Under the pieces are notes generated by a model. That model did no database searches. It was not told where the DNA came from and worked only from the letters and a program-made list of their open reading frames with translations. From Calditrichota bacterium (GTDB lineage: Bacteria > Calditrichota > Calditrichia > Calditrichales > Calditrichaceae), in NCBI GenBank assembly GCA_024278755.1, contig JAJRSO010000012.1, positions 1 to 64,000 on the forward strand: a stretch of DNA of 64,000 nucleotides, in the 5' to 3' direction. The position numbers and the translations under genes were made by a program. Shown one piece after another: positions 17,238 through 33,260 of this stretch. Position 1 is the first letter of the stretch. Every line of letters begins with the position of its first letter.

Positions 17238-17310
17238 TTTTATCCAATTCATTAGGCAGGCGGCGATTAAAATAAGACTAAAGCAACTTTCGGGTAGAGT
17301 GTCTCTATTT

Positions 17311-18579
17311 ATGAACTATTTTATTTTACATCGTTTTATTTTACTGACCGCCGGCCTTCTTTTTTTACTATCCTGCCAAAGAGAACACTCAAATATTTTT
17401 GACCCTAAAAACGAAGTTGATTTTTTGGAACTCGGCCTGCAAATAAAACAGGCAGATTCGGTGGTCGTTTTAAAATGGAACGCGCCAGCTTCCGCAAATT
17501 ACATCGGGTTTAATGTGTTTCGTAAAACCGCAGAAGAAGAGACCTATACAAAAGCAGCCGTGGTTGCAGCGGATTCCTTCTCATGGACAGATAGGGATGT
17601 ACAAAACGCCAAAACATATTCATACTATCTAACGGTTCAGGGAGACGGTGTGCAGTCTTCGGCCACTAGTGTAATTAAAACGACCCCCGGCCCGGATCGC
17701 TTTTGGATTTTGGATCGCTGGAATTTTTATATCTTACATTTAACATCGGATTTGCGCCATACCATTGCCAGCCATTTTGCTGTCGATCGTCCGCAAAATA
17801 TGTGTTTTAATTCCATCGGAAACGCCGCCTTAATTACTTACACACGCCAACACTATATGGAACTTTTTAACCCGCGCAGCGGTGAACATTTAAAAGATTT
17901 TTATCGGCTGGAAAAACCGTACGACTGCATATTCGACGCCGCCAACAACCGCTTTTGGATTTCCGATTCTGCCGGCGTTGTTTTTACCCTGAATAACGAA
18001 ACCCGAGAACTCCAACCGGTAAACGAAAGCCTGTCCCGGCCGGCGCAGTTGGGGATGGACAGGCAGGGACGTATATATGTTTTGGACGCACAGTTACAAC
18101 GGATTATCCGATTAAATCCCGAGGGGGCCATTGCGGATACCCTGACGATCTCCGATGACAATATCCTCTCATTTGATATTGATTTTAAACGAAACCTGCT
18201 CTATTCTGTCGGTACGGACGATTCGTTAAAGTATCTGCGCCGTTATTCGATTACGGATTCCGTCGTAACAGAGCTTTTTAGCGATCCGTATCTGAAACAG
18301 GTGCGGCATTCTCCGCGGGATGCATCGGTCTGGTTTACCCTGAATAATGACAACTCTGCAAAAATAGTGCAACTTTCTGCAGAAGGTATTCGTCTTAATG
18401 TGCTGGACGGATTGAATTATATTGCGGATATGGACATCTCTTCCGCCACCGGAAATATCATTGCCGGAACATTAAATTTAGATTCCCGGGAAGGTCTGGT
18501 ACAGCATCTGACTCCTAACGGTTCTGTTATCGGCAGTTCCAAACAAGTGTATTATCCTTACAGGATTTATATTAAATGA
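17311..18579 (+). CDS. Lipoprotein with FnIII domain and beta-propeller
   Basis: About 422 residues. The signal is lipoprotein-type, with a hydrophobic run then LLSC near residue 22. Residues of about 40-125 look like a fibronectin type III domain (SVVVLKWNAP...TYSYYLTVQG). The rest (about 130-420) consists of NHL/SMP-30-like blade sequences (QLGMDRQGRIYVLDAQLQRI), so probably a beta-propeller. I chose ATG 17311; GTG 17299 is in frame but poorly supported. The stop overlaps the start of the membrane phosphatase gene (ATGA), which couples the two. It may be an envelope sensor feeding the phosphatase, but that is inference from context only. Confidence 0.75.
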   Translation: MNYFILHRFILLTAGLLFLLSCQREHSNIFDPKNEVDFLELGLQIKQADSVVVLKWNAPASANYIGFNVFRKTAEEETYTKAAVVAADSFSWTDRDVQNAKTYSYYLTVQGDGVQSSATSVIKTTPGPDRFWILDRWNFYILHLTSDLRHTIASHFAVDRPQNMCFNSIGNAALITYTRQHYMELFNPRSGEHLKDFYRLEKPYDCIFDAANNRFWISDSAGVVFTLNNETRELQPVNESLSRPAQLGMDRQGRIYVLDAQLQRIIRLNPEGAIADTLTISDDNILSFDIDFKRNLLYSVGTDDSLKYLRRYSITDSVVTELFSDPYLKQVRHSPRDASVWFTLNNDNSAKIVQLSAEGIRLNVLDGLNYIADMDISSATGNIIAGTLNLDSREGLVQHLTPNGSVIGSSKQVYYPYRIYIK

Positions 18580-20693
18580 AGCGGTTTAACCTGCGCAGCT
18601 ATTTACCGATTATCCTTATCTTAATAATCAGCCTGATAGCGTTTATTTTTGATGTTTTAAAGTTCTACAGCTCCGTGGATATCCAGAGTTGGTCGTATAT
18701 TCATGAATCGCTGGCCTTTATTAATATGGTTGTTTACTATCTTTATCTTCGTAAGCGTCCCCTGTTTAAAGAGACCGACGTAAAGACCATAATCAAAAAC
18801 TTTGGTGTATTGTTAGCGGCTCTCTATATCCTGGTTTTATTGAATAAACAATTTTTATCCGGTGATTTTTCGGGCGGCGCCTTTCCGCTGGAACCCGACA
18901 ATATCTCCTCACTGGTGTATGCCAACAGTATGTCCCTGATTGCCATCCTGTTCTTTATTCCCATGCTGCTTCTGATTCGTAACCTGATTACCTATAAATA
19001 TAAAAAACGAACCAAACTGTACCTGACCGGTGCGGTCGGTCTGACCGTCTTTTTAATGGCCTGGACAGCCGTATTTAAAATCGCTCCCGATATCAGTTTC
19101 GATTTTTCTCTGAACGATACAAATTCCATTTTAACGTTGATTTCAAATAGCGTTTTTATGCTGTCCCTTCTCTTTTTTTTCATACTCTCAACTCATACCA
19201 GTTGGGTAACCCATCTGCGCAAGCGCGAAAAGGCCTCCTTTTTTATCCTCTCGGCCATTCTCATCTGGTTGATTATTTATATCTACGGTTTTGCCTTTGA
19301 CCAGGCGGTGCCGGCGCACAGCATCGCACTGGGAATATTTACAAATTCCGCCTGGTTGTTTTTAACTTTTTATTCCACAATGGCCGGTTTAAACTTAATG
19401 ATGCATCTGCCCACGGCCCGTATTTTTGACCGTAAAATGAACGAAATTTCTTCCCTACACGACTTAAGCCGCGCCATTTCGGTGGATACGGACTTCCACT
19501 CCATCGTGCATCTCGTCATTGAAATGAGCGCCGATGTACTGGAGACCAACTTTACCTGGCTCGAAGTGTACAATCAGGAAGAGCAAACCTCTAAAGTAAC
19601 CGCTTCAAACCGCCTGACTCAGAGAGAAATTGCCGCATTGTCCAAACACTCCAATCATTTCATAAACAATCAGATTTATTCCGAAAAAAAAGTAGTTGTT
19701 ATTAATGAATTTACCAAAGACAGCCCCTATCAGCAGATTAAATTCTGGAAGAAGGAGATTGAATCGTTGGCCGGCGTACCCATTATCGGCAGCGATGGAA
19801 ATCTGTTTGGTATTCTGTACACGGCAAAAACCAAACGCTACGGATTTGACCCGGATGATGTAAATCTGCTGGAAGCCTACGCTAACCAGGCGGCTATCGC
19901 CTTTGAAAATGCCGAGTTAATGGCCAAGTCTCTCGAACGGGAACGTATGGAACAGGAACTTCAGATTGCCCGCGAAGTGCAGATGCGACTGCTGCCTCAG
20001 GATACGGCCGACGTACCCGGCTTACAGGTGGAAACACTTACCATTACCGCTTACGAAGTGGGTGGCGATTATTATGACTTTTACAGCATCTCCGACCGGG
20101 GGTTGGGCTTGATTATCGGCGATGTGAGCGGAAAAGGAACCTCCGCGGCCTTTTACATGGCAGAGACCAAAGGTATCATTTTATCCCTGGCCGAGAGTTT
20201 GACAAGACCGGCGGAAATATTAAAGAAAGCCAATAAAATTCTCTATCCGTCTATGGAAAAAAAGGCCTTTATCAGTATGCTGGCCGCCCGCTGGGATGCC
20301 GATACAAAAATCCTGCATTTTGCACGGGCCGGGCATTGTCCGGTTATTCACTACGCTTCCGCTTCTAAAAATACAATTTTATTGCAACCGCCGGGCCTGG
20401 CCATCGGTCTGGATGAAGGACGTATTTTTGACCAGATTTTAAAAGAGACGGAACACCAGACCGCAGCAGGCGATATTCTGGCTTTTTACACAGACGGATT
20501 AAGCGAAGCGCGCAATAAAAACGACGAAGAATTTGGCGAACAACGCCTTTGCGATGTAATCAGAGAAAACGCCCATCTTGATGCGGAAGCATTAAAACAA
20601 GCGATCATCGATACCATCTTAAGCTTTTTGGACGGTCAGGCTTTACATGATGACCTGACTCTGGTATTGTTAAAAATTAACGATTTGAAATAG
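18576..20693 (+). CDS. Membrane GAF-PP2C (RsbU/SpoIIE-type) serine phosphatase
   Basis: 705 residues. About eight hydrophobic helices occupy residues 8-274 and a GAF domain about 290-455. A PPM/SpoIIE phosphatase domain fills about 465-705. The metal-site motifs GGDYYD, GDVSGKG, YTDGLSEA and HDDLTLVLL are all intact, so it should be active. The likely role is to dephosphorylate a STAS anti-sigma antagonist in a partner-switching cascade. It is translationally coupled to the upstream lipoprotein and followed by a STAS gene 11 bases later. The ligand of the membrane or GAF part is unknown. Confidence 0.92.
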   Translation: MKRFNLRSYLPIILILIISLIAFIFDVLKFYSSVDIQSWSYIHESLAFINMVVYYLYLRKRPLFKETDVKTIIKNFGVLLAALYILVLLNKQFLSGDFSGGAFPLEPDNISSLVYANSMSLIAILFFIPMLLLIRNLITYKYKKRTKLYLTGAVGLTVFLMAWTAVFKIAPDISFDFSLNDTNSILTLISNSVFMLSLLFFFILSTHTSWVTHLRKREKASFFILSAILIWLIIYIYGFAFDQAVPAHSIALGIFTNSAWLFLTFYSTMAGLNLMMHLPTARIFDRKMNEISSLHDLSRAISVDTDFHSIVHLVIEMSADVLETNFTWLEVYNQEEQTSKVTASNRLTQREIAALSKHSNHFINNQIYSEKKVVVINEFTKDSPYQQIKFWKKEIESLAGVPIIGSDGNLFGILYTAKTKRYGFDPDDVNLLEAYANQAAIAFENAELMAKSLERERMEQELQIAREVQMRLLPQDTADVPGLQVETLTITAYEVGGDYYDFYSISDRGLGLIIGDVSGKGTSAAFYMAETKGIILSLAESLTRPAEILKKANKILYPSMEKKAFISMLAARWDADTKILHFARAGHCPVIHYASASKNTILLQPPGLAIGLDEGRIFDQILKETEHQTAAGDILAFYTDGLSEARNKNDEEFGEQRLCDVIRENAHLDAEALKQAIIDTILSFLDGQALHDDLTLVLLKINDLK

Positions 20694-20704
20694 AGGGAGA
20701 AACC

Positions 20705-21058
20705 ATGAGCGGATTTACGGTTGAACGTAGCGATAAGGATGATATTTCGGTTTTGTATATATCCGGTTTTTTGGATTTACATACGGTACCTAAATTCGAA
20801 GAGGCCGTTCAGAACCTGGTAAACGAAACACATTTTAAAATAATCGTCAATTTCCAAAAGCTCGATTATATCAGCAGCGCCGGTCTGGGGGTTTTTATGG
20901 GATTTATCGAAGAGATCCGTGAACAAGAGGGCGATATCGTACTGTGTTGTATGTCCGACCGCGTTTATAAGGTATTCGATCTGCTCGGGTTTCCGGCTCT
21001 TTTTAAAATTGTGTCCAATGAAGAAGAAGCCATGCAAAAGTTTAATTCTGCCGGATAA
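20705..21058 (+). CDS. STAS-domain anti-sigma factor antagonist
   Basis: A 117-residue single-domain STAS protein of the SpoIIAA/RsbV type. The conserved phosphorylation loop is DYISSAGLGVF, with the target Ser at about residue 58-59. Such proteins bind the anti-sigma kinase when unphosphorylated and release the sigma factor. The ribosome site (GAGGGAGAAACC) is clear. It lies between the first phosphatase and an RsbW-like kinase, the expected partners. Confidence 0.92.
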   Translation: MSGFTVERSDKDDISVLYISGFLDLHTVPKFEEAVQNLVNETHFKIIVNFQKLDYISSAGLGVFMGFIEEIREQEGDIVLCCMSDRVYKVFDLLGFPALFKIVSNEEEAMQKFNSAG

Positions 21059-21101
21059 ACGGGACTTCCTGATTATTTAAATTTAACATAAAGACTGCGC
21101 T

Positions 21102-21542
21102 ATGGAAAAACAAAAGACCAGACAATTTAAACTTAAAGTTGCCAGCTCCCCGGAAAATCTGGGTACAATCCGCGAGTTTATTCATGATATTTCGCTTAAT
21201 GCCGGGTTTGATTCCGAAACAGCCGGCCAGATAGAACTGGCCGTAGACGAAGCCTGTACCAATGTGATTAAACATGCCCATAAATACGAATACGATAAAT
21301 CCATTGACTTGCTTGTTCTTCTTGATGCGCAGAAAATTACGGTTACTATTACGGATCGCGGACTGGGATTTGATGTAAACAAAGTGGCAAAACCGGATCT
21401 GCAAAAATATATTCACGAAGCAAAAAAAGGCGGGCTGGGGATTCATCTGATGCGCAGTTTAATGGATGAAGTCCAATTCGAGTTTAATCCCGGCGTAAAA
21501 AATCAGGTTACGATGGTTAAATATTTTAAGAATAATAAATAG
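21102..21542 (+). CDS. RsbW/SpoIIAB-like anti-sigma serine kinase
   Basis: A 146-residue GHKL ATP-binding protein. The N-box is ELAVDEACTNVIKHAH, G1 is DRGLGFD and G2 is GGLGIHLMRSLMDEV. It is predicted to phosphorylate the adjacent STAS protein and to sequester a sigma factor or another output partner. No sigma factor gene is in the window, so its target is elsewhere or is not a sigma factor. It follows the STAS gene by 43 bases and precedes a second phosphatase by one base. Confidence 0.92.
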   Translation: MEKQKTRQFKLKVASSPENLGTIREFIHDISLNAGFDSETAGQIELAVDEACTNVIKHAHKYEYDKSIDLLVLLDAQKITVTITDRGLGFDVNKVAKPDLQKYIHEAKKGGLGIHLMRSLMDEVQFEFNPGVKNQVTMVKYFKNNK

Positions 21543-21543
21543 T

Positions 21544-23310
21544 ATGAGTGCGTATTCGGACAACAATAAAAACCGGCGCTACGGAAGTGGAAACCAGACA
21601 GACTTTGAGAAAAGGGGGCTGGAACTATCCGCCCTGTTTGAAATAAGTAAAACACTTAATTCCAGCCATAAGCTGAATTTTGTTTTGGACAATATTCTTT
21701 TGGTTCCCATGGGACGGATGCTAATCAGTCGTGGCGTCATCCTGTTTCGGAATACGGAAAATACGTATCAAATACGGCATCTTAAAGGTCTTTCCAAAGA
21801 GTTACTGAATCAACATATAACGTTTCAGCCCGTACCCGACAGGCCGCTTTTAGCAAATAGCCTAAATGACGGTTCTGCCTGGCAGTTTTTTTTAAAAGAG
21901 ACTAAAATAGAACTGTTAATACCGCTAAAAGGCAGCATGCACTTTAACGGGCTTTTGGGATTTGGTAAAAAATTAACAGGAAAACCATTTTCGGATGAGG
22001 AAATTCAGTTTCTTTCTTCCCTTGGCAATATCGCCGCACAATCCATCGAAAATATTACGATGCTGGAAAAACTGAATTCGGCCAACCGCGCACTGGATCA
22101 AAAAGTGCAGGAACTGAATACTCTGTTCGAAATTGGCCGGGAACTGAACCAGATATTCGATCGCCCCTCCATCTTAAAACAGCTCTCCTATTCCCTGATG
22201 GGACAATTACTGGTCAATCAGTTTTTTGTCGCTTTAAAACAGAACGGAAAGCTTCGCATCGAATACCGCAAGGGCTCAAAATTAAACGCCGATAAGGTAA
22301 AGGACTGCGAACATCTTTGTGCATCGATAAAGGAAATAGAGCGACCTCTTTTTATTGGTAACGAAAACAAGTATCCGAAACTTCAGGCGCTGGGCATCAG
22401 GCTCATTGTTCCTATGATTTATAAAAATCAAACCAGCGGATTTATCTTTCTCGGTGAAAAATTAGACCATTCGCCCTTTAGCAAAACCAATCTTAGCTTC
22501 CTTTCCACCCTGGCCAATATGGTCATCATCTCACTGGAAAATTCCCGGCTGATTCAGGAAATCATCGAGAAAAAACGCCTCGAAGAAGAACTCAATTTGG
22601 CCAAAACAATTCAAAGACAATTGCTGCCTGCAAAAATGCCCGCCATTCCGGGATATGATATTCACGGATTAAATATTCCCAGTCGGCAGGTAGGCGGCGA
22701 TTATTATGACATTATTTCTCTGAGTGAAGATGAATATCTGTTTACAATCGCAGATGTATCCGGCAAAGGAATGCCCGCCGCTCTGCTGATGTCTAACCTG
22801 CAGGCCGGTTTACACTCACTGGCCGGAGAGCACTATAAACCGGAGCAAACGACTGCCCGCCTGAACAATCTTATCCACCGCAACACAACCATTGAAAAAT
22901 ACATCACTTTTTTTGTGCTCATCCTTAACACGCGCAGCGGGGCCTTTACCTACGTGAATGCCGGACATAATCCGCCCTATCTGTTTAGTGAAACCGATGG
23001 CGTCACGGCTTTGGAAGACGGCGGAATAATTCTTGGAATGATGCCCGACGTCGTTTATCAATCCGGCAGCGGACTCATAAAATCGGGCGAATGCCTGGTA
23101 ATGTTTACCGATGGCGTTACGGAAGCGGCCAATGCAAACGAGGAAGAATTTGCCGAAGGCGGTGTTATAGATTTTTTTAAATCCCGTTTTCCCCTGCATA
23201 GCAGCGAACAACTGAACACACTTTTATTGGAAGAATTACACCGTTTCTCCAACGGCGATCCCGCCCGGGCCGATGATATCACAATCCTTACCATTAAGGC
23301 CCTTCGCTAA
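21544..23310 (+). CDS. Cytoplasmic tandem-GAF PP2C (RsbU-type) phosphatase
   Basis: 588 residues with no membrane segment. Two GAF-like domains lie at about 20-175 and 190-340. A coiled linker (KRLEEELNLAKTIQRQLLP) leads into a PPM/SpoIIE phosphatase (about 355-588). The metal motifs GGDYYD, ADVSGKG, FTDGVTEA and ADDITILTI are complete. It is probably the second input to the same STAS/kinase pair, this time from cytoplasmic signals. Its ATG lies one base after the kinase stop. Confidence 0.92.
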   Translation: MSAYSDNNKNRRYGSGNQTDFEKRGLELSALFEISKTLNSSHKLNFVLDNILLVPMGRMLISRGVILFRNTENTYQIRHLKGLSKELLNQHITFQPVPDRPLLANSLNDGSAWQFFLKETKIELLIPLKGSMHFNGLLGFGKKLTGKPFSDEEIQFLSSLGNIAAQSIENITMLEKLNSANRALDQKVQELNTLFEIGRELNQIFDRPSILKQLSYSLMGQLLVNQFFVALKQNGKLRIEYRKGSKLNADKVKDCEHLCASIKEIERPLFIGNENKYPKLQALGIRLIVPMIYKNQTSGFIFLGEKLDHSPFSKTNLSFLSTLANMVIISLENSRLIQEIIEKKRLEEELNLAKTIQRQLLPAKMPAIPGYDIHGLNIPSRQVGGDYYDIISLSEDEYLFTIADVSGKGMPAALLMSNLQAGLHSLAGEHYKPEQTTARLNNLIHRNTTIEKYITFFVLILNTRSGAFTYVNAGHNPPYLFSETDGVTALEDGGIILGMMPDVVYQSGSGLIKSGECLVMFTDGVTEAANANEEEFAEGGVIDFFKSRFPLHSSEQLNTLLLEELHRFSNGDPARADDITILTIKALR

Positions 23311-23904
23311 AAGAGTTTTGGGGCAGCGTCGTAAAATCGGGTACAAACAGACAAATCTGCCCAGTATTGAATAATCAAGACGTTGTATTTTATCAACTAA
23401 ATGGTTCCTGAAGAACAGTAATTCCCCCTAAAACAGGCTGTCACAGCTTTTCATTAAACCGCAAAACGCGCAACGGTTCGCCGGGAAAAACAAAAAGCGG
23501 GGCGCCTATTCCCGCTCATTTTCGTTTCGAGCCGTTTCTTTACGCTTATTGCATGCGCTGCGTTTAGACCCTTATTCTGCACTACCCAAATCTTAGCTGA
23601 TAACAACCGAAGACTAACGCGAATACATTTAAACAAATGAAACAACAAACTCTAAAAGGGGCTAATCAATGAAAATCAGTATTTATCCCTGGTAAAAAAA
23701 CCGGTAACAACCTTATTAAAAAGATGTCCTCGAAAGGTCTGCAAACGCCTGTTTTATTTTTTAGGACACAATCCCCACAAGTCGCCAGAGTCATTCACTT
23801 TTTATCTTTCTTTAAAAAATAAAATAAATTACGGCCATATTGGGTAATGCTTATTTGAAACTTGTTACCTTTTTGATTAGATTTCGGAAAAACAAGGAAT
23901 TGAT
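23311..23904. other. Long intergenic gap inside the signalling block
   Basis: 594 bases with no believable gene. A minus-strand ORF at 23454-23648 has basic, random-looking translation and no ribosome site. The stretch near 23458-23500 (CGCAAAACGCGCAACGG and on) is a purine-rich phrase of the sort found in decayed intergenic repeats. The right end carries a promoter-like sequence for the next phosphatase. The gap probably divides the block into two transcripts. Confidence 0.5.
23855..23883 (+). promoter_or_regulatory. Putative sigma-70-type promoter
   Basis: TTGAAA (23855-23860) and TAGATT (23878-23883) are separated by exactly 17 bases. They lie just ahead of an AAGGA ribosome site (23894-23898) and the TTG start of the third phosphatase. 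The promoter consensus of this lineage is unknown to me, so this is tentative. Confidence 0.3.
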
Positions 23905-25815
23905 TTGTCAGCATATAAACTTATAATTTCCACCGTTTTATTTATTCTCAGCATCGCATTATTTTGCCTGCTGAACACCGTATTGAACCGTATTGTCGTC
24001 TTTCACGCCGTCTATTCATTTGCGCTTACTCTCTTATTTTTTATGGCCTTTAACAAGCTGGCAGAGAAATATCTGAAAAAAATTATTGGCAAAGCTTATT
24101 TTCTGCGTATGAGCAAAGCACAGGAGATACTAATTCTTCTGAATTCCGAACTTAACCGCGCTCTGCGTTTTCGTAAAGTAACCCAAATTCTTTTCAAATC
24201 GTTTAAGAGCTTGTTTCCGGAAGTGCCGTACGCTTTTTATATTCTCGAAGACGGACGTTTCAGTCTCCGCAACCAGCAGTTAATCGAAGACGAAGAAATT
24301 TTACTGCGCGATATTAAAACGGAAGAGCTTTCCGATATTTCCGAAGACGATATTTTTATCAGCATAAAAAAACTAAAACTACCCAAACCCTTTGTAAAAA
24401 AACTGAATAAGGCCGGACTTACCGCCATCGTACCGTTTCAGGGCAGAGTTCAGTTGTTTGCCTTTTTACTAATCGCCCCCCGTTCCATTCCCTTTTATAA
24501 AGAAAAAGAAACAATGGAGCGGTTACATATCATTCAAAGCAAGGCCGGTGTGATTTTAGAAAACACCGCGCTTTTTGCGGACCTCGAACAAAAGAATAAA
24601 GAGACAAAGAATCTTATTGAAATAAGCAATCAGATTTTGTCTTCTTTCGAAATTACAAAAACGCTTGATTTTATATTGGAAGCGCTAAGTTCGGTTGCGG
24701 CCTATGACGCAGCAGTCATTTATCTGCTCGATAAAAGCGGAAAACGACTCTTACGCGCCAGCAGTACGGGATACAATCCCGAAGTAATGGAAAATCTTCG
24801 CCTCAAAATAGGTCAGGGTTCATGCGGCAAAGTAGCCGAGACAAAGCAGACGGCCGTGCTTGACGATGTTGAGCAGAGCGAACACTATTTTATGTTGCGT
24901 AAAGAGACACGATCTCAGGTTTCTATTCCTTTAGTCCATGCGGACGAAGTGGTGGGTATTTTATGTCTCGAGAGTAACCGCCCGGCATTTTTCAATGCCA
25001 CAGCCGTAGATAAGCTACAGCTTTTCGCCCGCCTGGCAGCTATCGCTATTTTCAATGCCGGGCAAATTAAATCACTCATCGATAAACGCGCCCTGGAAAA
25101 TGATTTAATCAGCGCCGGAATTGTTCAGAAAAAACTACTGGTGCAACGTTTCCCTTCCGTAGAAAAATTAAAAATAAATGCCGTAAACATTCCCAGTAAG
25201 TTTATGAGCGGCGATTTATACGATATTATCCGCTACAACGAAAAGACCATCGGCGTAGCCATCGGCGATGTGGCAGGCAAAGGCGCCCCCGCCTCTCTAA
25301 TGATGGCCCTTATTCTGGCCGGCCTGCGTACGCAGAAGAAAAGCTTTTTAAACACCTGCGATCTGGTTTACCGCCTTAATAATCTGGTTGCCGAAACAAC
25401 CATAGAGGGGAAATACGCCACCTTTTTTTTCGGCGTCTTTTCGCTAACCCAAAATAAGCTTATTTTTACAAATGCCGGGCATAATCCTCCATTTTTAATT
25501 AAAGCCGACGGCACAATCGTTCGATTAGAAAAAGGCGGCATTGTGCTTGGTTTCATCCCCGACTGGGAGTACATCCAGCATGAAGTCAGTTGGGAGCCGG
25601 GCGATTTGTTTATCGCATATACCGACGGAGTAAGTGAAACAATGAACAGCGCGGGAGAAGAGTTTGGTGAAGAGCGGCTGATAAACCTTATGTTACAAAA
25701 ACGCGATAAAAACGTATTTGAATTAAAAAATATAATTATTTCGGCAGTAGAGGAATTTTCAGGCAAGGACGCGCCAGACGACGATATGACCCTGGTCATT
25801 TGTAAAAACGAATAA
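23905..25815 (+). CDS. Membrane-anchored GAF-PP2C (RsbU-type) phosphatase
   Basis: 636 residues, starting at TTG 23905 with an AAGGA site six bases upstream and no better ATG. Two hydrophobic segments (about 5-28 and 34-52) form an anchor. A first sensor-like region (about 65-220) is followed by a GAF domain (about 235-395) and a SpoIIE phosphatase (about 400-636). The usual GGDYYD reads SGDLYD, keeping the metal Asp; GDVAGKG, YTDGVSET and PDDDMTLVI are present. It is likely active. It is the third phosphatase of the block and is followed seven bases later by the REC-GGDEF gene. Confidence 0.9.
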   Translation: MSAYKLIISTVLFILSIALFCLLNTVLNRIVVFHAVYSFALTLLFFMAFNKLAEKYLKKIIGKAYFLRMSKAQEILILLNSELNRALRFRKVTQILFKSFKSLFPEVPYAFYILEDGRFSLRNQQLIEDEEILLRDIKTEELSDISEDDIFISIKKLKLPKPFVKKLNKAGLTAIVPFQGRVQLFAFLLIAPRSIPFYKEKETMERLHIIQSKAGVILENTALFADLEQKNKETKNLIEISNQILSSFEITKTLDFILEALSSVAAYDAAVIYLLDKSGKRLLRASSTGYNPEVMENLRLKIGQGSCGKVAETKQTAVLDDVEQSEHYFMLRKETRSQVSIPLVHADEVVGILCLESNRPAFFNATAVDKLQLFARLAAIAIFNAGQIKSLIDKRALENDLISAGIVQKKLLVQRFPSVEKLKINAVNIPSKFMSGDLYDIIRYNEKTIGVAIGDVAGKGAPASLMMALILAGLRTQKKSFLNTCDLVYRLNNLVAETTIEGKYATFFFGVFSLTQNKLIFTNAGHNPPFLIKADGTIVRLEKGGIVLGFIPDWEYIQHEVSWEPGDLFIAYTDGVSETMNSAGEEFGEERLINLMLQKRDKNVFELKNIIISAVEEFSGKDAPDDDMTLVICKNE

Positions 25816-25822
25816 TAGTCCT

Positions 25823-27457
25823 ATGCAAGAAGACAAAATAATTCTTTACATCGAAGATGACCCCCAAGCCCGGTTTCTGATGGCAGATATTATCCGATAT
25901 AAAGGATATATTTATCTTGAAGCATCCCGCGGGCTCGAAGGAATTCAGCTTGCAGAGCAGCACACGCCCGATTTAATTCTTATTGACCTGATGCTTCCCG
26001 ATATGCAGGGGTACGAAGTTACCACCCATTTAAAAACACTTCCGCGACTTGATAGCACACCAATTATAGCGATCACCGCCGCCACACAAAAAAATGTCAA
26101 GGAAATGGTATTGGCGGCAGGCTGTGACGGTTTTATCCCCAAACCCATCAATGTAAGCGAATTTGTATATAAAATTGAAGAGTATCTCTCGGGACACAAA
26201 GACAATATGGAACCCGAAGAGGAACGTCTCTATCTTCAAAAATATAATATTCAGTTGGTCAGTCGTTTAAAAAAGAAAATTTTGGAACTGGAAACCTTAA
26301 ATGAAAATTTAACCGCTCTTAACTCCGAACTTTTCGCATCCAAAGAAGAACTTTCGCATTACAATGATCGCCTGTTTTATCTGAATAACCTTTCCAATTA
26401 TTTACGCACACTCACCGATCCTCTGGATGTTATCCGTATTCTTCCGCAAAAAATTATCGAAGGGTTTCAGATGAAGCGATGCGTGATTTTCGAAACCGGA
26501 TATAATGAAGAAACGCTTATTCCGGCAGCGACTTCCGGTATTCCCCTTTCATTTCTGGAACAAAACAAAACAAGGCTTTCCCGGCAGTTTTTTCATGAAT
26601 TATCAAAAGAGGGACATATCCTCTGGATTAAAGACCCCGCCGAAATTGTGGATGAATCGTTAGTGACCTTTTCACAACGGCTGGACACATCTAATTTTAT
26701 TATCGGAAATATCTCCAACTTGGGAATTCATAAAGGTTTCGGAGCCGTTTTAAGCGATTCCGGCGTAGAAATTCTGCCAGAGCTTGACCTTCCCTTTTCC
26801 CGGCAATACCTTGTTTTTATAGACAAGGGGAAAAAAGGCGTACCGTTTCATACATACGAAGTGCGCATTATGAAATCACTTCTGCATTCGGCAGCCATCA
26901 CTTACGAAAATATTTTACTGCACACACAACTGGTCAATCTCTATAAAATCAAAGCCGAGCAGGCCATACGGGATGAAATGACGAACATGTACAACTACCG
27001 TTATTTTATTCAGGAATTGCATCGCGAAACCAACCGTAGCAAACGGTTTAAAACCTGCTACTCGCTCATGATGGTAGATATCGACCATTTTAAAAAATAC
27101 AATGATAAAAACGGCCATCCCGAAGGTGATAAGGCCTTAAAACTGATCAGCGGTTTAATGGATCAAAACACCCGAACCACCGACACCGTTTGCCGCTACG
27201 GCGGTGAAGAATTTACCATCATTATGCCCGGGTTAAAAAAGACAGAAGCCATTATGATTGCCGAAAAACTGCGTACGTTAATCGAAAACCATCGTTTTTC
27301 GGGAGAGGGAGAAGAGCCCTGTTGTAAGCTCACCATTAGCATTGGCGTTGCTTCGTATCCCGAAGATAGCACCCAACCGGAAGTATTATTACAATTGGCA
27401 GATAAGGCCATGTACAACGCCAAATCTCAGGGACGTAACCGGGTTGTCGCCAGCTAA
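25823..27457 (+). CDS. Receiver-GGDEF diguanylate cyclase
   Basis: 544 residues. The receiver domain (1-125) has acid pocket EDD (11-13), phospho-acceptor Asp55 in LILIDLMLP and Lys in FIPKPI. A coiled coil (about 145-185) and a GAF-like middle region (about 190-375) follow, then a GGDEF domain (about 385-544) with active site RYGGEEF. The inhibitory site RTTD is placed five residues before GGEEF, the classic product-inhibition spacing. It should make cyclic di-GMP under phosphorylation control. No kinase is adjacent. It probably shares a transcript with the third phosphatase. Confidence 0.93.
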   Translation: MQEDKIILYIEDDPQARFLMADIIRYKGYIYLEASRGLEGIQLAEQHTPDLILIDLMLPDMQGYEVTTHLKTLPRLDSTPIIAITAATQKNVKEMVLAAGCDGFIPKPINVSEFVYKIEEYLSGHKDNMEPEEERLYLQKYNIQLVSRLKKKILELETLNENLTALNSELFASKEELSHYNDRLFYLNNLSNYLRTLTDPLDVIRILPQKIIEGFQMKRCVIFETGYNEETLIPAATSGIPLSFLEQNKTRLSRQFFHELSKEGHILWIKDPAEIVDESLVTFSQRLDTSNFIIGNISNLGIHKGFGAVLSDSGVEILPELDLPFSRQYLVFIDKGKKGVPFHTYEVRIMKSLLHSAAITYENILLHTQLVNLYKIKAEQAIRDEMTNMYNYRYFIQELHRETNRSKRFKTCYSLMMVDIDHFKKYNDKNGHPEGDKALKLISGLMDQNTRTTDTVCRYGGEEFTIIMPGLKKTEAIMIAEKLRTLIENHRFSGEGEEPCCKLTISIGVASYPEDSTQPEVLLQLADKAMYNAKSQGRNRVVAS

Positions 27458-27606: not shown

Positions 27607-28029
27607 ATGAAAGAGAAGGTCAGACCAATTCTAATGGGTGGCATCATTGCCACTGCGGCAATGACCGTGTTTATGCCGGTTGCGCCTTACCTGCGCATGC
27701 CAAAAATGCTTATAGGAAAAATGCTGGCCGGTTTTATGCATCTGCCGATTTTCATGGGCTGGATATTACATTTTATAATCGGAACTATTTTAGCCACCAT
27801 GTTTGTTTTAGTCTGGGAAAAGCGTTTACCCGGGAATGCGCCGGTAAAAGGAATGTTCTTTTCGCTTATTCCATTTTTAGTGGCGCAAACAGTTGCAATG
27901 CCGGTAATGGGCGCCGGATTCTTTTTTATGAATTCCCCTGCTCCGGCAATGATGGTGATAAGTAGTTTACTTGGGCATTTGGTATATGGCGGTGTTTTGG
28001 GAATTGTGACAGAAAAAGCAGGACAATAA
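27607..28029 (+). CDS. DUF6789-like small membrane protein
   Basis: 140 residues and mostly hydrophobic, with four likely helices (for example GGIIATAAMTVFMPV, GWILHFIIGTILATMFVLVW, FFSLIPFLVAQTVAMPV). It resembles DUF6789/YagU-type membrane proteins of unknown function. The ribosome site is weak (AGGGAAACC before the ATG). It ends one base before the NDH-2 gene, so it may be a membrane partner of that enzyme, although this is only inferred from spacing. Confidence 0.65.
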   Translation: MKEKVRPILMGGIIATAAMTVFMPVAPYLRMPKMLIGKMLAGFMHLPIFMGWILHFIIGTILATMFVLVWEKRLPGNAPVKGMFFSLIPFLVAQTVAMPVMGAGFFFMNSPAPAMMVISSLLGHLVYGGVLGIVTEKAGQ

Positions 28030-28030
28030 A

Positions 28031-29296
28031 ATGCAATCTAAAGAACATATCGTAATTATTGGCGGAGGATTCGGTGGTTTACACGCTGCTATGGCGCTCC
28101 GGAATACGAATATTCGGGTAACACTCATCGACAAGCGCAATTTTCACCTGTTTCAACCCCTGCTTTATCAGGTTGCCACCGGTGGTTTATCTCCGGCCGA
28201 TATCGCTACCCCTCTGCGGACCGTATTTAAAAGGTATCGAAATATCCGGGTAGTATTGGGAACCGTTCGTAAAGTTGATCTTGAACAGAAACTTGTGTAT
28301 CTCGAACGCCAGAAATTTTCTTATGATAAACTTATTTTGGCCGCCGGCGCCAGTACCCATTATTTCGGAAAAGATCAATGGGCCGAAGTGGCTTCCGGAC
28401 TTAAAACCATCGAAGATGCAACAACTATTCGTAGTAGAGTTCTTTCGGCATTTGAAATGGCCGAGCTGGAAAAAGAGCCAAACATAAAAGCCGCCCTGCT
28501 AACATTTACCGTTATCGGAGGCGGACCGGCGGGTGTGGAAATGGCCGGGGCCATTGCCGAAATTGCCAGGATTACCATGCGCTGTGACTTTAGAAACATC
28601 AATCCGTCTCTGGCGCGAATTATTTTAATTGAAGGAAATGAACGCATTTTATCCGCCTATCCGGAAAAACTGTCTGTAAAGGCGCAGAAAACCCTGAGCA
28701 AACTGGGTGTTGAAGTGCTGACCGGGGCCTATGTTACCGGTATTCGGCAGGGAACGCTCACTCTTAAAAGCGCAAACGGTTCCCGATCCATTGCATCACA
28801 AACTCTTATTTGGGCGGCCGGCGTTAAAGCGGCTTCGGTAAGCGCCATACTGGCAAAACACTACAACCTTATAACAGACCATTCCGGACGAATTATCGTA
28901 AATCCTGATTGTACGATTCCCGATTTCCCCAACGTTTATGTAATCGGCGATATGGCTCATTTCCAGACAAAGGGAAAAGATATGCTGCCGGGCGTGGCCC
29001 CGGTTGCCATGCAGCAGGGGCGATACGTGGCCAATCATATTCTAAAAAAGAAAACAGGACCGTTTAAATATACGGACAAGGGGAACCTGGCTGTTATCGG
29101 ACGGAAATCGGCCGTGGCTTTCCGTGGAAATATAAAACTTTCGGGTGCGATTGCCTGGATATTGTGGATTTTTGTCCATCTTTTATTTCTTGTCGGAGCG
29201 GAAAACCGCATTCTGGTCGCTATTCAATGGGGCTTTAACTACGTTACATTCGGTCAGAGCGCGCGTTTGATTGTAAACAATCGCAACGCCTGTTAG
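28031..29296 (+). CDS. ndh: Type II NADH dehydrogenase-like FAD oxidoreductase
   Basis: 421 residues. The FAD-binding motif is IIGGGFGGLHAAMAL (9-23) and the second Rossmann motif is VIGGGPAGVEMAG (about 159-171). The FAD-closing motif is VYVIGDMAHF. The early FQPLLYQVATGGLSP segment is typical of NDH-2. The C-terminal amphipathic or hydrophobic stretch (ILWIFVHLLFLVGAENR and on) suits membrane-surface binding and quinone reduction. It is expected to oxidise NADH without proton pumping. It follows the DUF6789 gene directly and is followed by a terminator-like hairpin. Confidence 0.9.
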   Translation: MQSKEHIVIIGGGFGGLHAAMALRNTNIRVTLIDKRNFHLFQPLLYQVATGGLSPADIATPLRTVFKRYRNIRVVLGTVRKVDLEQKLVYLERQKFSYDKLILAAGASTHYFGKDQWAEVASGLKTIEDATTIRSRVLSAFEMAELEKEPNIKAALLTFTVIGGGPAGVEMAGAIAEIARITMRCDFRNINPSLARIILIEGNERILSAYPEKLSVKAQKTLSKLGVEVLTGAYVTGIRQGTLTLKSANGSRSIASQTLIWAAGVKAASVSAILAKHYNLITDHSGRIIVNPDCTIPDFPNVYVIGDMAHFQTKGKDMLPGVAPVAMQQGRYVANHILKKKTGPFKYTDKGNLAVIGRKSAVAFRGNIKLSGAIAWILWIFVHLLFLVGAENRILVAIQWGFNYVTFGQSARLIVNNRNAC

Positions 29297-29322
29297 CCCG
29301 GAATTAATCCGGGCATATTTTA
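29296..29322 (+). terminator. Probable intrinsic terminator after ndh
   Basis: A perfect 7-base stem, GCCCGGA (29296-29302) and TCCGGGC (29308-29314), with loop ATTAA, starts on the last base of the ndh stop codon and is followed by ATATTTTACTTTT. The T tract is interrupted, so efficiency is uncertain. Confidence 0.6.
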
Positions 29323-29353
29323 CTTTTAATAAGAAAAGAAAGAGGCAGATAAA

Positions 29354-29635
29354 ATGGAAGCAAGATGGAATAATAAAACAATCGCTAAAAGCGACAAAAC
29401 AATCATCGTCGAAGGCAATCACTATTTTCCACCGGAATCGGTGCACAAAGAATTTTTAACTGAAAGCAGCCATACAACAAAATGCCCGTGGAAGGGAACC
29501 GCTTCTTATTATAACGTTGTAGTGGAGGGCAAGACGAATATAAATGCCGCCTGGTGCTATACGCAGCCCTTCGCAGCCGCGGCACAGATAAAGGGATATA
29601 TTGCTTTCTGGAACGGGGTTGAAATCTCTGATTAG
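29354..29635 (+). CDS. DUF427 protein
   Basis: 93 residues, a single small beta-rich domain. The sequence EARWNNKTIAKSDKTIIVEGNHYFP and the TTKCPWKGTASYYNVV segment are typical of DUF427 (PF04248-type) proteins. The biochemical role of the family is unknown to me. A ribosome site (AAAGAGGCAG) precedes the ATG. It is convergent with the CrtI-like gene, whose stop lies 16 bases on. Confidence 0.8.
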   Translation: MEARWNNKTIAKSDKTIIVEGNHYFPPESVHKEFLTESSHTTKCPWKGTASYYNVVVEGKTNINAAWCYTQPFAAAAQIKGYIAFWNGVEISD

Positions 29636-29650
29636 ACGATGGCCTTTTAG

Positions 29651-31240
29651 CTATGATTTCGTTTCCGATTGTAAAATTTTTAGCTCCGGCCCGTTCATTT
29701 TTAATAAACCGCCTGTGGAACAGCGCAGTATTTTTTTGGCGGCGGTTAAACCCGATACCGTGGCGCCAGCCACTCCGTGACTTAGGGTACTGGCTCCGCA
29801 CATGAGCAGATTTTTGATCTCCGTCTGTACCGGGAAGGAGCCCGGCCCCACCTGGGACGGCGTTTTGGCAATACTGTACAAATTACCCCGGGTAGCGTTT
29901 ATATAGTGTTCGTTTGTTAATGGCGTGGCCAGATTTTTAAAGACAACATGGTCGGAAATACCCGGCACCTGTTTTTCCAGACGACTAAACATTGTCTGCA
30001 TAAGTTTTTCTTTTAACTGCTGATATTCCTGGGAACGGTGGCCGCACTCTTCTCCGGCCCATTTGCTAAAGGCCGCGTAATCAATAAAAGAAAACGCTTC
30101 ACAGGTATGAATACCATCACGCAGTTTGGCCGGATCTTTTAGCGTGGTAACCGTTAAAAACATGGCCGGCACGGTATTCGTTTTTAAAACCGCGCTGCTT
30201 TGGCCCATCCGGTACAATCCGTCCACATCGGGTGAATCGTACAACCAATAGTTACCCGAATCCAATCCCGCCGCGCGTAAATCCATATCCACCGCAAAAA
30301 AGAGGCTGAGCGCGGAGATGGAATAGGTAACCCGATCCAGTTTTTTGCACAGCTTTTTACTCAGATGCTCCCGTCCTATTAGGGTTCCAAAGGTCACTTC
30401 CGGGTCTGCATTGCTGATCACATAGCGGGCGCTTAGTTCAGTTCCGTCCTGCAGAATAACCTTTTGAATAGTGCTTTTTTCCACGATGAGTTTTTTCACC
30501 GCCGTTTGTAAACGGATTTCTCCGCCGGCCCGTTTTAAGGCGCGGACAAAAGCATTAGGAATGGCCTGGGCGCCGTTTTTGGGATAGTAGCCGCCATCAA
30601 AATAATGGTGGGTAATCCCGGCATGCACAAAGGCCGAAACCTGCGATGGCGGCAATCCATGATCGCCTGACTGCGCCGAGAGAATACCCTTTAATAAGGG
30701 ATCGGATACGTAGGCGTCCATCAAATCCTGCCCGGTGCGTTTAAACCATTTAAGCACCGAAGCTAAACGGACAGGTAATTTAAAGACGTCTCCGGCATTT
30801 TTTACCTGTCCCAGATGATTCAGGTTTTCCATCATCGCCGTGAGGGTGTCAAAATAGCTGTCAATCCCCTTTGCTTCCTGTGGGAAGCGCTCTTTTAAAC
30901 GGGCAATCAACTTGTCTTTTCCTCGGGGAAAATCGAAGCGCTCGTCGCCGAATATAAAATGATCAAAACCATCGGGATTCAATTCATAAAATGGCAAATC
31001 CTGCGAAACGCCCAACCCTTCGTAAATGCGGCGCATGGGTCCGCCTTCGTTTAACCCGCCGATATAATGTACACCGGGGCTAAAACGGTGACCTCCGATG
31101 GTAAAGGAATGCGTCCAGCCGCCCGGTACATCATGCTGTTCGCAAACCAGCACTTTTTCTCCGGCCTGAGCCAGGGGCAACGCCGCGGATAGTCCCCCGG
31201 CTCCCGAACCGATAACAATGACGTCATAGTCATAATTCAT
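29651..31240 (-). CDS. CrtI/RetSat-like FAD-dependent oxidoreductase
   Basis: 529 residues. An N-terminal dinucleotide motif VIVIGSGAGGLSAALPLAQAG is followed by the CEQHDVPGGWTHSF segment seen in phytoene desaturases, carotenoid isomerases and retinol saturases. GGYYPKNGAQAIPNAFVRAL is the mid-protein family signature. The C-terminal GASTLSHGVAGATVSGLTAA closes the FAD site. It is probably a polyene or lipid desaturase, saturase or isomerase; the substrate cannot be read. No other carotenoid genes are in the window. Confidence 0.85.
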   Translation of the reverse strand: MNYDYDVIVIGSGAGGLSAALPLAQAGEKVLVCEQHDVPGGWTHSFTIGGHRFSPGVHYIGGLNEGGPMRRIYEGLGVSQDLPFYELNPDGFDHFIFGDERFDFPRGKDKLIARLKERFPQEAKGIDSYFDTLTAMMENLNHLGQVKNAGDVFKLPVRLASVLKWFKRTGQDLMDAYVSDPLLKGILSAQSGDHGLPPSQVSAFVHAGITHHYFDGGYYPKNGAQAIPNAFVRALKRAGGEIRLQTAVKKLIVEKSTIQKVILQDGTELSARYVISNADPEVTFGTLIGREHLSKKLCKKLDRVTYSISALSLFFAVDMDLRAAGLDSGNYWLYDSPDVDGLYRMGQSSAVLKTNTVPAMFLTVTTLKDPAKLRDGIHTCEAFSFIDYAAFSKWAGEECGHRSQEYQQLKEKLMQTMFSRLEKQVPGISDHVVFKNLATPLTNEHYINATRGNLYSIAKTPSQVGPGSFPVQTEIKNLLMCGASTLSHGVAGATVSGLTAAKKILRCSTGGLLKMNGPELKILQSETKS

Positions 31241-31894: not shown

Positions 31895-32527
31895 TTATTC
31901 GGTTCCGTAAATACGGTCGCCGGCATCTCCGAGGCCGGGCAAAATGTACTTGTGTTCGTTCAGTTCACGGTCCAGCGCCGCGGTAAAGATGGGAATATCC
32001 GGATGCGTCTTTTCTAAATGAAGCACTCCTTCCGGCGAAGCGACGAGACAGACAAAAGTAATGGCCGTTCCGCCGGCATTTTTAACAAAATCAAGCGCGG
32101 CGGCGGCGCTCCCTCCGGTAGCCAGCATAGGGTCAATAACAATAATTTCCGTTTCGGCAATGTCTTCGGGAAACTTGCGGTAATATTCCACCGGCATCAT
32201 GGTCTTTTTATCGCGATACAATCCCAGATGCCCCACCCGGGCATGGGGAATCAGACGCAGAATACCGTCGCTCATACCCAATCCGGCACGTAAAATAGGC
32301 ACCAGCGTCACTTCCTTAGCCAGCACATAGCCAACCGCTTTTTCCAGCGGAGTTTCCAATTCCCGTTCGCGCAAGGGCATATTGCGCGTTACTTCGTAAA
32401 CCATCAGGCCGGAGATTTCGTTAAGCATCATTCGGAAATTAAGATTATTAGTACGTTTGTCACGGAGGTAAAAAAGTTTTTGCTGAATGAGAGGATGGTG
32501 AAGGATGGTTAAATTTTTAAAGTCCAT
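31895..32527 (-). CDS. upp: Uracil phosphoribosyltransferase
   Basis: Pyrimidine salvage: uracil + PRPP gives UMP. The PRPP-binding loop is IVIDPMLATGGSAAAAL (about 129-145). The VPILRAGLGMSDGIL motif (76-90) and the C-terminal uracil-site sequence PGLGDAGDRIYGTE are diagnostic. Its 210 residues are a normal length. It lies three bases downstream of the acyltransferase gene, in a serS-plsC-upp transcript. Confidence 0.96.
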   Translation of the reverse strand: MDFKNLTILHHPLIQQKLFYLRDKRTNNLNFRMMLNEISGLMVYEVTRNMPLRERELETPLEKAVGYVLAKEVTLVPILRAGLGMSDGILRLIPHARVGHLGLYRDKKTMMPVEYYRKFPEDIAETEIIVIDPMLATGGSAAAALDFVKNAGGTAITFVCLVASPEGVLHLEKTHPDIPIFTAALDRELNEHKYILPGLGDAGDRIYGTE

Positions 32528-32530
32528 ACA

Positions 32531-33247
32531 TTAGTCCTTTTTTAAAGAGGCTTCGTAACGACTCACAATACTATTGCGGATATTCTGTATTAATTGCTGT
32601 CGCTGCTCATATTTATAGTTTTCGGTGGGCACCGGTTCTAAGAACTCAATCTGAATAGTTCCCTTGTGCAAATGTAAATCCTTCTTTTGCATAATTTCCA
32701 TAGCGCCGGTTAAAACCATGGGCGCAATGGGGATGCCCCCTTTTATGGCCAGTACAAATCCGCCTTTTTTAAAGGGCTGAATGTTACCGTCTTTCGTGCG
32801 CGTACCTTCTGGAAAAATAATAACGGAAACACCTTTTTTAATTTCTTCGATGGCCTTATCGAGAGACTGACGCGCTTTTTTACTGTTGCCGCGATCAATG
32901 GGAATCATGCCTACGGCACGCATACCCTGTGCAAATACCGGAATACGGAAGAGTTCCTGCTTGGCCAGGAAACGGGCCGTTCCGGGAATAACGCTCAGAC
33001 AGGTCATAATATCAAAGGTGCTTTGATGGTTAGACATGAACAGGTAAGATTGATTTGAGTCCAGCCGTTCGATCCCTTTTACCCGCACCTGAATACCGGA
33101 TATTTTTAGAATGGAGCGCGCCCAGGAACGAACGATATTATTGGTTCGCTCCGAATAGGGACTTATTAATCCGGAAATAATGGCAATAACCGAATAAAAA
33201 AAGGTTACCATCGACGAGGCAAAAATAATCCATGCGGAACGAAACAT
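32531..33247 (-). CDS. plsC: 1-acyl-sn-glycerol-3-phosphate acyltransferase
   Basis: Makes phosphatidic acid from lysophosphatidic acid at the inner membrane. An N-terminal helix (about 5-28) anchors it. The HX4D motif is SNHQSTFD (His74, Asp79), and FPEGTRTKDG is the glycerol-phosphate site (block III). GGIPIAPMVLTGA is block IV. Its 238 residues are typical. It lies between serS and upp with short gaps, so they are probably co-transcribed. Confidence 0.92.
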   Translation of the reverse strand: MFRSAWIIFASSMVTFFYSVIAIISGLISPYSERTNNIVRSWARSILKISGIQVRVKGIERLDSNQSYLFMSNHQSTFDIMTCLSVIPGTARFLAKQELFRIPVFAQGMRAVGMIPIDRGNSKKARQSLDKAIEEIKKGVSVIIFPEGTRTKDGNIQPFKKGGFVLAIKGGIPIAPMVLTGAMEIMQKKDLHLHKGTIQIEFLEPVPTENYKYEQRQQLIQNIRNSIVSRYEASLKKD

Positions 33248-33260
33248 AAACGGATGCTCC

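Follow-up and report, generated by a model that had tools for sequence, protein, structure and literature searches.

Partner switches of Bacillus, i.e., RsbU/RsbV/RsbW (SigB) and SpoIIE/SpoIIAA/SpoIIAB (SigF), are built from a PP2C phosphatase, a STAS protein with a phospho-serine, and a HATPase_c_2 kinase. Annotations usually present RsbW-like kinases as anti-sigma factors. In Chlamydia, a switch made of RsbU, RsbV1/V2 and RsbW, with a sensor phosphatase, works without SigB, and its target is reported as sigma-66 (PMC11619594; articles are cited here for the passages that concern these systems). In Pseudomonas, SiaC acts on the diguanylate cyclase SiaD (PMC8457831). We analyzed a row of genes of this kind in the first 64,000 nucleotides (the window) of contig JAJRSO010000012.1 (C77 in our numbering) of a Calditrichota bacterium (assembly GCA_024278755.1), a draft genome of 3.94 Mb that is 95.8% complete. 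The row lies entirely on the plus strand, in the order predicted lipoprotein (LP), PP2C1, STAS, RsbW, PP2C2, a gap of 594 bases, PP2C3, and REC-GGDEF. An initial annotation of the interval reported three PP2C phosphatases with intact metal motifs, one STAS protein, one RsbW-like kinase and a closing REC-GGDEF gene, all of which are confirmed by Pfam matches and by residues; the lipoprotein gene at the start of the interval and the gap, which carries repeats, were absent from it.

The switch proteins and their conservation

The STAS gene (20705-21058) encodes a protein of the RsbV/SpoIIAA type, with a Pfam match at 1.3e-20 and a TIGR00377 score of 79.2 bits, compared to a cut-off of 53.45. Its nearest solved relative is SpoIIAA (1th8), and Ser58, which we take from the STAS family to be the phosphorylated residue, corresponds in the alignment to the first serine in the DSSGLG motif of SpoIIAA. 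The next gene (21102-21542) encodes an RsbW-like serine kinase, or switch protein of the anti-sigma type, with a HATPase_c_2 domain (Pfam, 5.3e-31); the nearest solved relative is the Serine-protein kinase RsbW (6m36), and the residues of the N, G1 and G2 boxes are present. The scores of this protein are below the curated equivalog cut-offs (92.6 vs 145 bits for NF003144, 84.8 vs 155.05 for TIGR01924, and 65.6 vs 135 for TIGR01925). In domains and residues, STAS, RsbW and the PP2C proteins match a partner-switching module of the RsbU/RsbV/RsbW type. Across the host genome there are twelve HATPase_c_2 matches, of which three are strong and resemble RsbW, along with nine STAS, nine SpoIIE (three in this row), eight GGDEF and three PilZ matches.

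Conservation was assessed in metagenome-assembled genomes with short contigs, with locus and rank names following the titles given by submitters. A search with RsbW in 60 relatives yielded a match in 51 (threshold 0.001), and 33 genomes of the same class as the host (class genomes) have an RsbW orthologue at 41-61% identity, the loci of which were retrieved. A wider scan of named genomes with an RsbW alignment contributed the best 80 of 578 confirmed relatives, a choice that favors near relatives. Together with the window, this gave 114 loci, and after removal of 14 duplicates, 100 distinct loci were used for the counts. Genes were labelled with models built for this analysis, and adjacency refers to the next labelled gene.

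STAS and RsbW are adjacent in 100/100 distinct loci, from Calditrichota, KSB1, Ignavibacteriota, Bacteroidota, Gemmatimonadota and Acidobacteriota (34/34 in the class, window included, and 66/66 elsewhere). Where the contig leaves room, the next labelled gene is a PP2C gene upstream of STAS in 84/93 loci (32/32 in the class, 52/61 elsewhere) and downstream of RsbW in 89/96 (34/34, all Calditrichota, and 55/62, respectively), with gaps of at most 300 bases in 82/85 and 87/90 cases. Two to five PP2C genes are found in the visible stretch of 87/100 loci: there are two in 40, three in 38, four in seven and five in two loci, the remainder having one (12 loci) or none (one locus). Ser58 of STAS is kept in 100/100 loci, as are Asp49, Glu50, Asn54, Asp85, Gly87, Gly111 and Gly113 of RsbW; in three loci (L136, L146 and L182), a tandem pair of RsbW genes stands behind one STAS gene. 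In the class, PP2C1 is often preceded by rlmN, adk and LP. In a tree of STAS and RsbW combined, the Acidobacteriota are on one branch (support 100/100), most Ignavibacteriota are together, and the class loci form two supported groups; most other loci fall near their own group, and some groups required more than one change. In this tree and in the RsbW searches, the nearest relatives of the host are Calditrichota. Searches of the open literature, i.e., outside subscription papers, found no report of partner switching in Ignavibacteriota, no mention of Calditrich among the matches listed for RsbU/RsbW, and only apparently unrelated work for the Caldithrix genome and sigma factors.

These comparisons make it fairly probable that LP, PP2C1, STAS, RsbW and PP2C2, the core of the row, constitute a partner switch of old origin in which several sensor phosphatases are interchangeable. 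The domains, the intact residues, and the gene order with its conservation support the proposal of the initial annotation that several sensors converge on one STAS/RsbW switch. Several observations weigh against this interpretation. It is an assumption that this STAS protein is the substrate of all three phosphatases, in a genome with nine SpoIIE and nine STAS matches; the PP2C gene is not the next labelled gene in 9/93 loci upstream and in 7/96 downstream; and 18 Ignavibacteriota-type loci carry an upstream sigma factor gene of the extracytoplasmic function (ECF) type, so that the absence of a sigma factor is not universal.

By analogy with the RsbU/RsbV/RsbW family, which is the source for the cycle of phosphorylation, for the direction in which the switch works and for the action of all phosphatases on this STAS protein, the following sequence of events may be proposed. 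RsbW would phosphorylate STAS on Ser58, and RsbW free of STAS would hold a target protein. A membrane signal would activate PP2C1, with the propeller lipoprotein encoded alongside perhaps taking part, PP2C2 would respond through its tandem GAF domains to a signal in the cytoplasm, and, in this lineage, a third signal would activate PP2C3. The active phosphatase would dephosphorylate Ser58, and STAS would then capture RsbW, releasing the target. The latter would be encoded outside the row and could be a WhiG-like, primary or ECF sigma factor, or a non-sigma protein. REC-GGDEF would represent a separate output under the control of its own receiver; together with PP2C3 it makes up a two-gene unit, which in some members of the class is found next to the core.

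Sensor phosphatases and the accessory cyclase pair

The three phosphatases share SpoIIE-type PP2C domains (Pfam, 1.6e-45 for PP2C1, 2.5e-43 for PP2C2 and 5.6e-44 for PP2C3), and all six tested metal-motif aspartates, presumably metal-binding as in the family, are present in each. These aspartates are kept in 102-103/104 copies of the PP2C1 group, 88-89/89 of the PP2C2 group and 10/10 of the PP2C3 group. The sensory ends differ, as initially described. In PP2C1 (18576-20693), the predicted model places eight long N-terminal helices, predicted to be in the membrane, ahead of a GAF domain, and a long linker helix (residues 426-472) resembles the coiled linkers through which sensor domains ahead of PP2C are exchanged in the proteins covered by the relevant part of PMC12143880. 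PP2C2 (21544-23310) is soluble, with two GAF_3 stretches in Pfam, and PP2C3 (23905-25815) has a GAF domain and an N-terminal anchor of two hydrophobic helices, read by eye. Foldseek searches with the models of LP and PP2C1 returned folds only. Five further proteins scanned from the rows of relatives comprise REC-PP2C, HAMP-GAF-PP2C, PDZ-GAF-PP2C, a PP2C with an unassigned N-terminus, and a REC-PAS-GAF protein. The last one, from a KSB1 locus (L131, 5033-7069), has no recognized output domain, PP2C included, and replaces PP2C1, being followed by a lipoprotein gene and STAS; an open reading frame of similar size occurs in L145. In a single-contig genome (G006, locus L104), PP2C1 is split over two open frames and may be broken or misread.

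The LP gene (17299-18579, with a possible ATG start at 17311) has no match in Pfam or NCBIfam. Its lipobox-type cysteine is near-invariant in an alignment of 21 rows, and the high-confidence model (predicted local distance difference test score 92.5) consists of an FN3-like domain and a beta-propeller of about seven blades. The Foldseek matches are designed seven-bladed propellers and Bacteroides surface lipoproteins at 10-15% identity, which indicates likeness of fold only. Because LP holds the same place ahead of PP2C1 across the class loci, its position suggests that it may help PP2C1 to sense something outside the cytoplasm.

The spacing of the genes divides the row. The LP and PP2C1 genes share 4 bases, 1 base lies between RsbW and PP2C2, and 7 bases lie between PP2C3 and REC-GGDEF, while the gap (23311-23904) interrupts the row between PP2C2 and PP2C3; therefore, two tight units are likely. 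Scans for promoters and terminators gave results at the level of chance (22 found vs 20.0 expected, and 15 vs 12.9, respectively). The gap contains two dispersed intergenic repeats, neither assigned to a strand. The first (23433-23529; positions 122-218 of the gap query) matches contig C35 at 81%, with shorter parts elsewhere. The second (23615-23700; gap query 304-389) matches several contigs and positions 65855-65940 of C77, mostly at 76-84%, and has copies on many other contigs of the same genome.

REC-GGDEF (25823-27457) has a receiver domain (Response_reg, 3e-24), a middle part without a domain call, and a GGDEF domain (2e-46) with the GGEEF form of the motif. Among 17 orthologues, Arg451 and Asp454 of the RxxD I-site are kept in 17/17 and the receiver residues in 16/16 of those aligned; the motif is GGEEF in 14 and GGDEF in 3. 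The protein scores below the PleD equivalog cut-off (237 vs 474 bits); by its phosphorylatable receiver, GG(D/E)EF motif and I-site, the predicted product is a REC-GGDEF response regulator with a diguanylate cyclase output. An orthologue is found in 19/40 class genomes (threshold 1e-60), with PP2C3 directly upstream in 17/19; in one of the two remaining cases the contig ends at that point, and G027, the match that diverges most, has no PP2C3.

This pair follows the core in 7/23 Calditrichota loci with at least 3.5 kb visible past PP2C2, window included, and in two further Calditrichota loci PP2C3 lies near the contig end. In G006, the pair is located 74 kb from the core on the same contig, and in several other genomes it is on a contig other than that of the core, mostly beside upp, plsC and serS. 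These genes (named by eye) also occur in the window, where they occupy 31895-34544 of the minus strand. The original place of the pair was therefore probably between the core and upp-plsC-serS, with separation having happened more than once. The window also holds, between the cyclase and upp-plsC-serS (27607-31240), genes named by eye as a small membrane protein and NDH-2-like and CrtI-like oxidoreductases; several relatives have none there. Among the 34 class genomes with the core, 19 lack an orthologue of the cyclase, and ten of these are at least 90% complete (these counts and the 7/23 above are our own tallies from the search rows). Thus, judging by gene order, PP2C3 and REC-GGDEF are a separate two-gene module, and the cyclase appears to be a later and optional neighbor of the core.

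A second partner switch of the host genome is located on contig C37 (locus L032, 6294-10270, minus strand). It comprises a STAS protein extended at its C-terminus, a protein of 356 aa that has no Pfam match, and a 724-aa RsbW kinase-HAMP-PP2C fusion with the kinase at the N-terminus. By eye, the tails of these neighbors are alike, and there is a weak HTH_23 match (0.0059) at the end of the fused protein. Most class genomes have similar RsbW matches (32-39%), the majority of them within open frames 360-1200 aa long.

Sigma factors and the target of the switch

The search for Sigma70_r2 found ten matches in the host genome, none of them on C77 and none in the window, in agreement with the initial annotation; an adjacent sigma factor overlooked by it is thereby rejected. 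According to open reading frames and NCBIfam, the ten comprise one RpoD, two FliA/WhiG-type and seven ECF-sized sigma factors, all away from the row. One FliA/WhiG-type gene is among flagellar genes (named by eye) on contig C27, and the other is on contig C61, beside a gene for a REC-HisKA protein. For a wider census, we used 60 genomes, half of them (30) from the class and the other 30 chosen among the best 80 loci of the scan. A sigma factor of the SigB/SigF/SigG type (TIGR02980) was above the cut-off in 0/60 genomes, host included, compared to 1/14 control genomes. FliA/WhiG-type sigma factors were above the cut-off in 39/60 genomes, leaving 21 with none. In seven of the 60 (G003, G068, G069, G077, G082, G087 and G088), there was a single sigma-70 match at 1e-10, below the FliA/WhiG cut-off, which is presumably the housekeeping factor; all seven are drafts, with completeness stated for G003 only (87%).

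Near the cassette itself, a model built from three sigma factors of the host detected no primary or group 3 sigma gene in the visible stretch of any of the 100 loci. Eighteen Ignavibacteriota-type loci have an ECF sigma gene ahead of the cassette, no more than 150 bases from the phosphatase gene in five (L161, L172, L177, L184 and L187) and at 1.0-1.7 kb in twelve; from this position, it is a plausible lineage-specific target. No orthologue of this ECF factor could be named in the host, the best matches, at about 31-39% identity, being split between two host ECF factors. Clustering of unlabelled same-strand open reading frames within 7.5 kb of RsbW revealed no general family that could serve as a conserved neighboring target; the largest cluster (13 loci, all Ignavibacteriota-type) is a membrane protein near the ECF sigma gene. 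Because SigB/SigF-type factors are found in none of the 60 genomes, FliA/WhiG-type factors are missing in 21, and an ECF gene was seen ahead of the cassette in 18 Ignavibacteriota-type loci, no one sigma type, as judged from these searches, goes with the cassette everywhere. The initial suggestion of an output through a distant sigma factor, or through none, holds as far as sequence can tell, and the genome search that it called for did find sigma factors outside C77, none of them of the SigB/SigF type above the cut-off; its other suggestion, the cyclase, does not hold as a general output.

We tentatively propose, while considering it somewhat less than an even bet, that the switch predates the split of Calditrichota, KSB1, Ignavibacteriota and their relatives, and Acidobacteriota, and serves as a hub for exchangeable PP2C sensors without a dedicated alternative sigma factor. 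The target of RsbW or STAS would be the primary sigma factor, lineage-specific ECF factors, or a protein other than a sigma factor, and further outputs, for instance a diguanylate cyclase, would have been added in single lineages.

Among the narrower explanations, it is possible, although on balance unlikely, that dephosphorylated STAS itself binds the target and RsbW is merely its kinase, as proposed for SypA, RbaV and HmpV, systems of a non-canonical kind reviewed in section 6 of PMC8256260. Conservation is indeed higher in STAS, with a mean column identity of 63% (21 rows), than in RsbW, with 39% (30 rows), but binding to RsbW and to several phosphatases may be sufficient to account for this, and the clustering described above yielded no conserved neighbor as a STAS target.

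Somewhat less probable is an ordinary anti-sigma circuit, with the distant, non-flagellar WhiG-like factor on C61, beside the REC-HisKA hybrid, as its sigma factor. This is the sole group 3 sigma factor of the genome outside the flagellar cluster; relatives at 52-88% identity were detected in the class loci retrieved, by our own tally in 26/30 class genomes searched. Furthermore, FlgM had no match in the host and matched in only 3/15 class genomes, so that the two FliA/WhiG-type factors may need another anti-sigma factor, although FlgM is small and easily missed. However, the C61 factor is of the FliA/WhiG type rather than the SigB/SigF type, the cassette is kept in the 21/60 genomes without any FliA/WhiG sigma factor above the cut-off, and two genomes with the core (G012 and G015) have one FliA/WhiG-type match each, presumably FliA.

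We consider it improbable that RsbW holds the primary sigma factor and that the switch tunes the whole transcription apparatus. The precedent is the working model for Chlamydia, in which RsbW represses via sigma-66 (PMC11619594; PMC4552016, in the passages on this model), and in the seven genomes with a single sigma-70 match the housekeeping-type factor is the only common candidate. Nevertheless, these genomes are drafts, six of them without stated completeness, and ECF factors and non-sigma targets are also possible in them.

Finally, it is highly doubtful that REC-GGDEF is the output, with STAS or RsbW binding the cyclase and setting the level of cyclic di-GMP: the idea has a precedent because HsbA-HsbD (an interaction that depends on HsbA phosphorylation; PMC5085249, in the part concerned), SiaC-SiaD and Moorella MtG show switch proteins acting on cyclases, the cyclase does close the row in some Calditrichota loci, behind PP2C3, and the three PilZ proteins of the genome could read cyclic di-GMP, but the conservation pattern disfavors it, as the cyclase is missing from 19/34 genomes with the core, well-completed ones included, travels with PP2C3 to places away from the core, has its own intact receiver domain, and is separated from the core here by the repeat-bearing gap. 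A lineage-specific input of the switch to the cyclase may still exist.

The cassette is kept, with every catalytic residue, in genomes that lack a sigma factor of the SigB/SigF type, and in some that apparently have the housekeeping-type sigma factor only; this turns the target of a sigma-less RsbW into a directly testable question. The loci also form a natural set in which two to five different sensor phosphatases seemingly share one STAS substrate.

Comparison with described systems

The Pseudomonas system SiaABCD likewise combines a PP2C phosphatase, a kinase, a partner protein and a diguanylate cyclase. However, PP2C2 and PP2C3 score 26-29 bits against 700 for SiaA, the cyclase scores 141 against 290 for SiaD, and the switch proteins of the row match the STAS and RsbW families. 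In HptB-HsbR-HsbA-HsbD, also of Pseudomonas, the genes of a STAS protein and of a diguanylate cyclase are close together, as they are here; in our row, the kinase and the phosphatases are separate proteins, and the cyclase, which has a receiver domain, is missing in more than half of the core-bearing class genomes. The Moorella stressosome with the diguanylate cyclase MtG also links switch proteins to a cyclase (PMC12143880 and PMC4976288, in the passages on MtG); the N-terminal domain of MtG is of the RsbU type, whereas the cyclase described here has a receiver domain, and the row is without the RsbR/RsbS/RsbT set of a stressosome.

The Bacillus switches share the three protein types with the row, and the nearest solved relatives of its kinase and its STAS protein are of their kind. 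The differences are that no SigB/SigF/SigG-type sigma factor was above the cut-off in the 60 genomes, that there are several PP2C genes per row, and that a lipoprotein gene stands in front. Like the Chlamydia switch, the row would operate without SigB and with sensor phosphatases; one RsbU acts on two STAS proteins in Chlamydia, according to the passages cited above, whereas in the loci compared here a single STAS-RsbW pair is mostly accompanied by two to five phosphatases.

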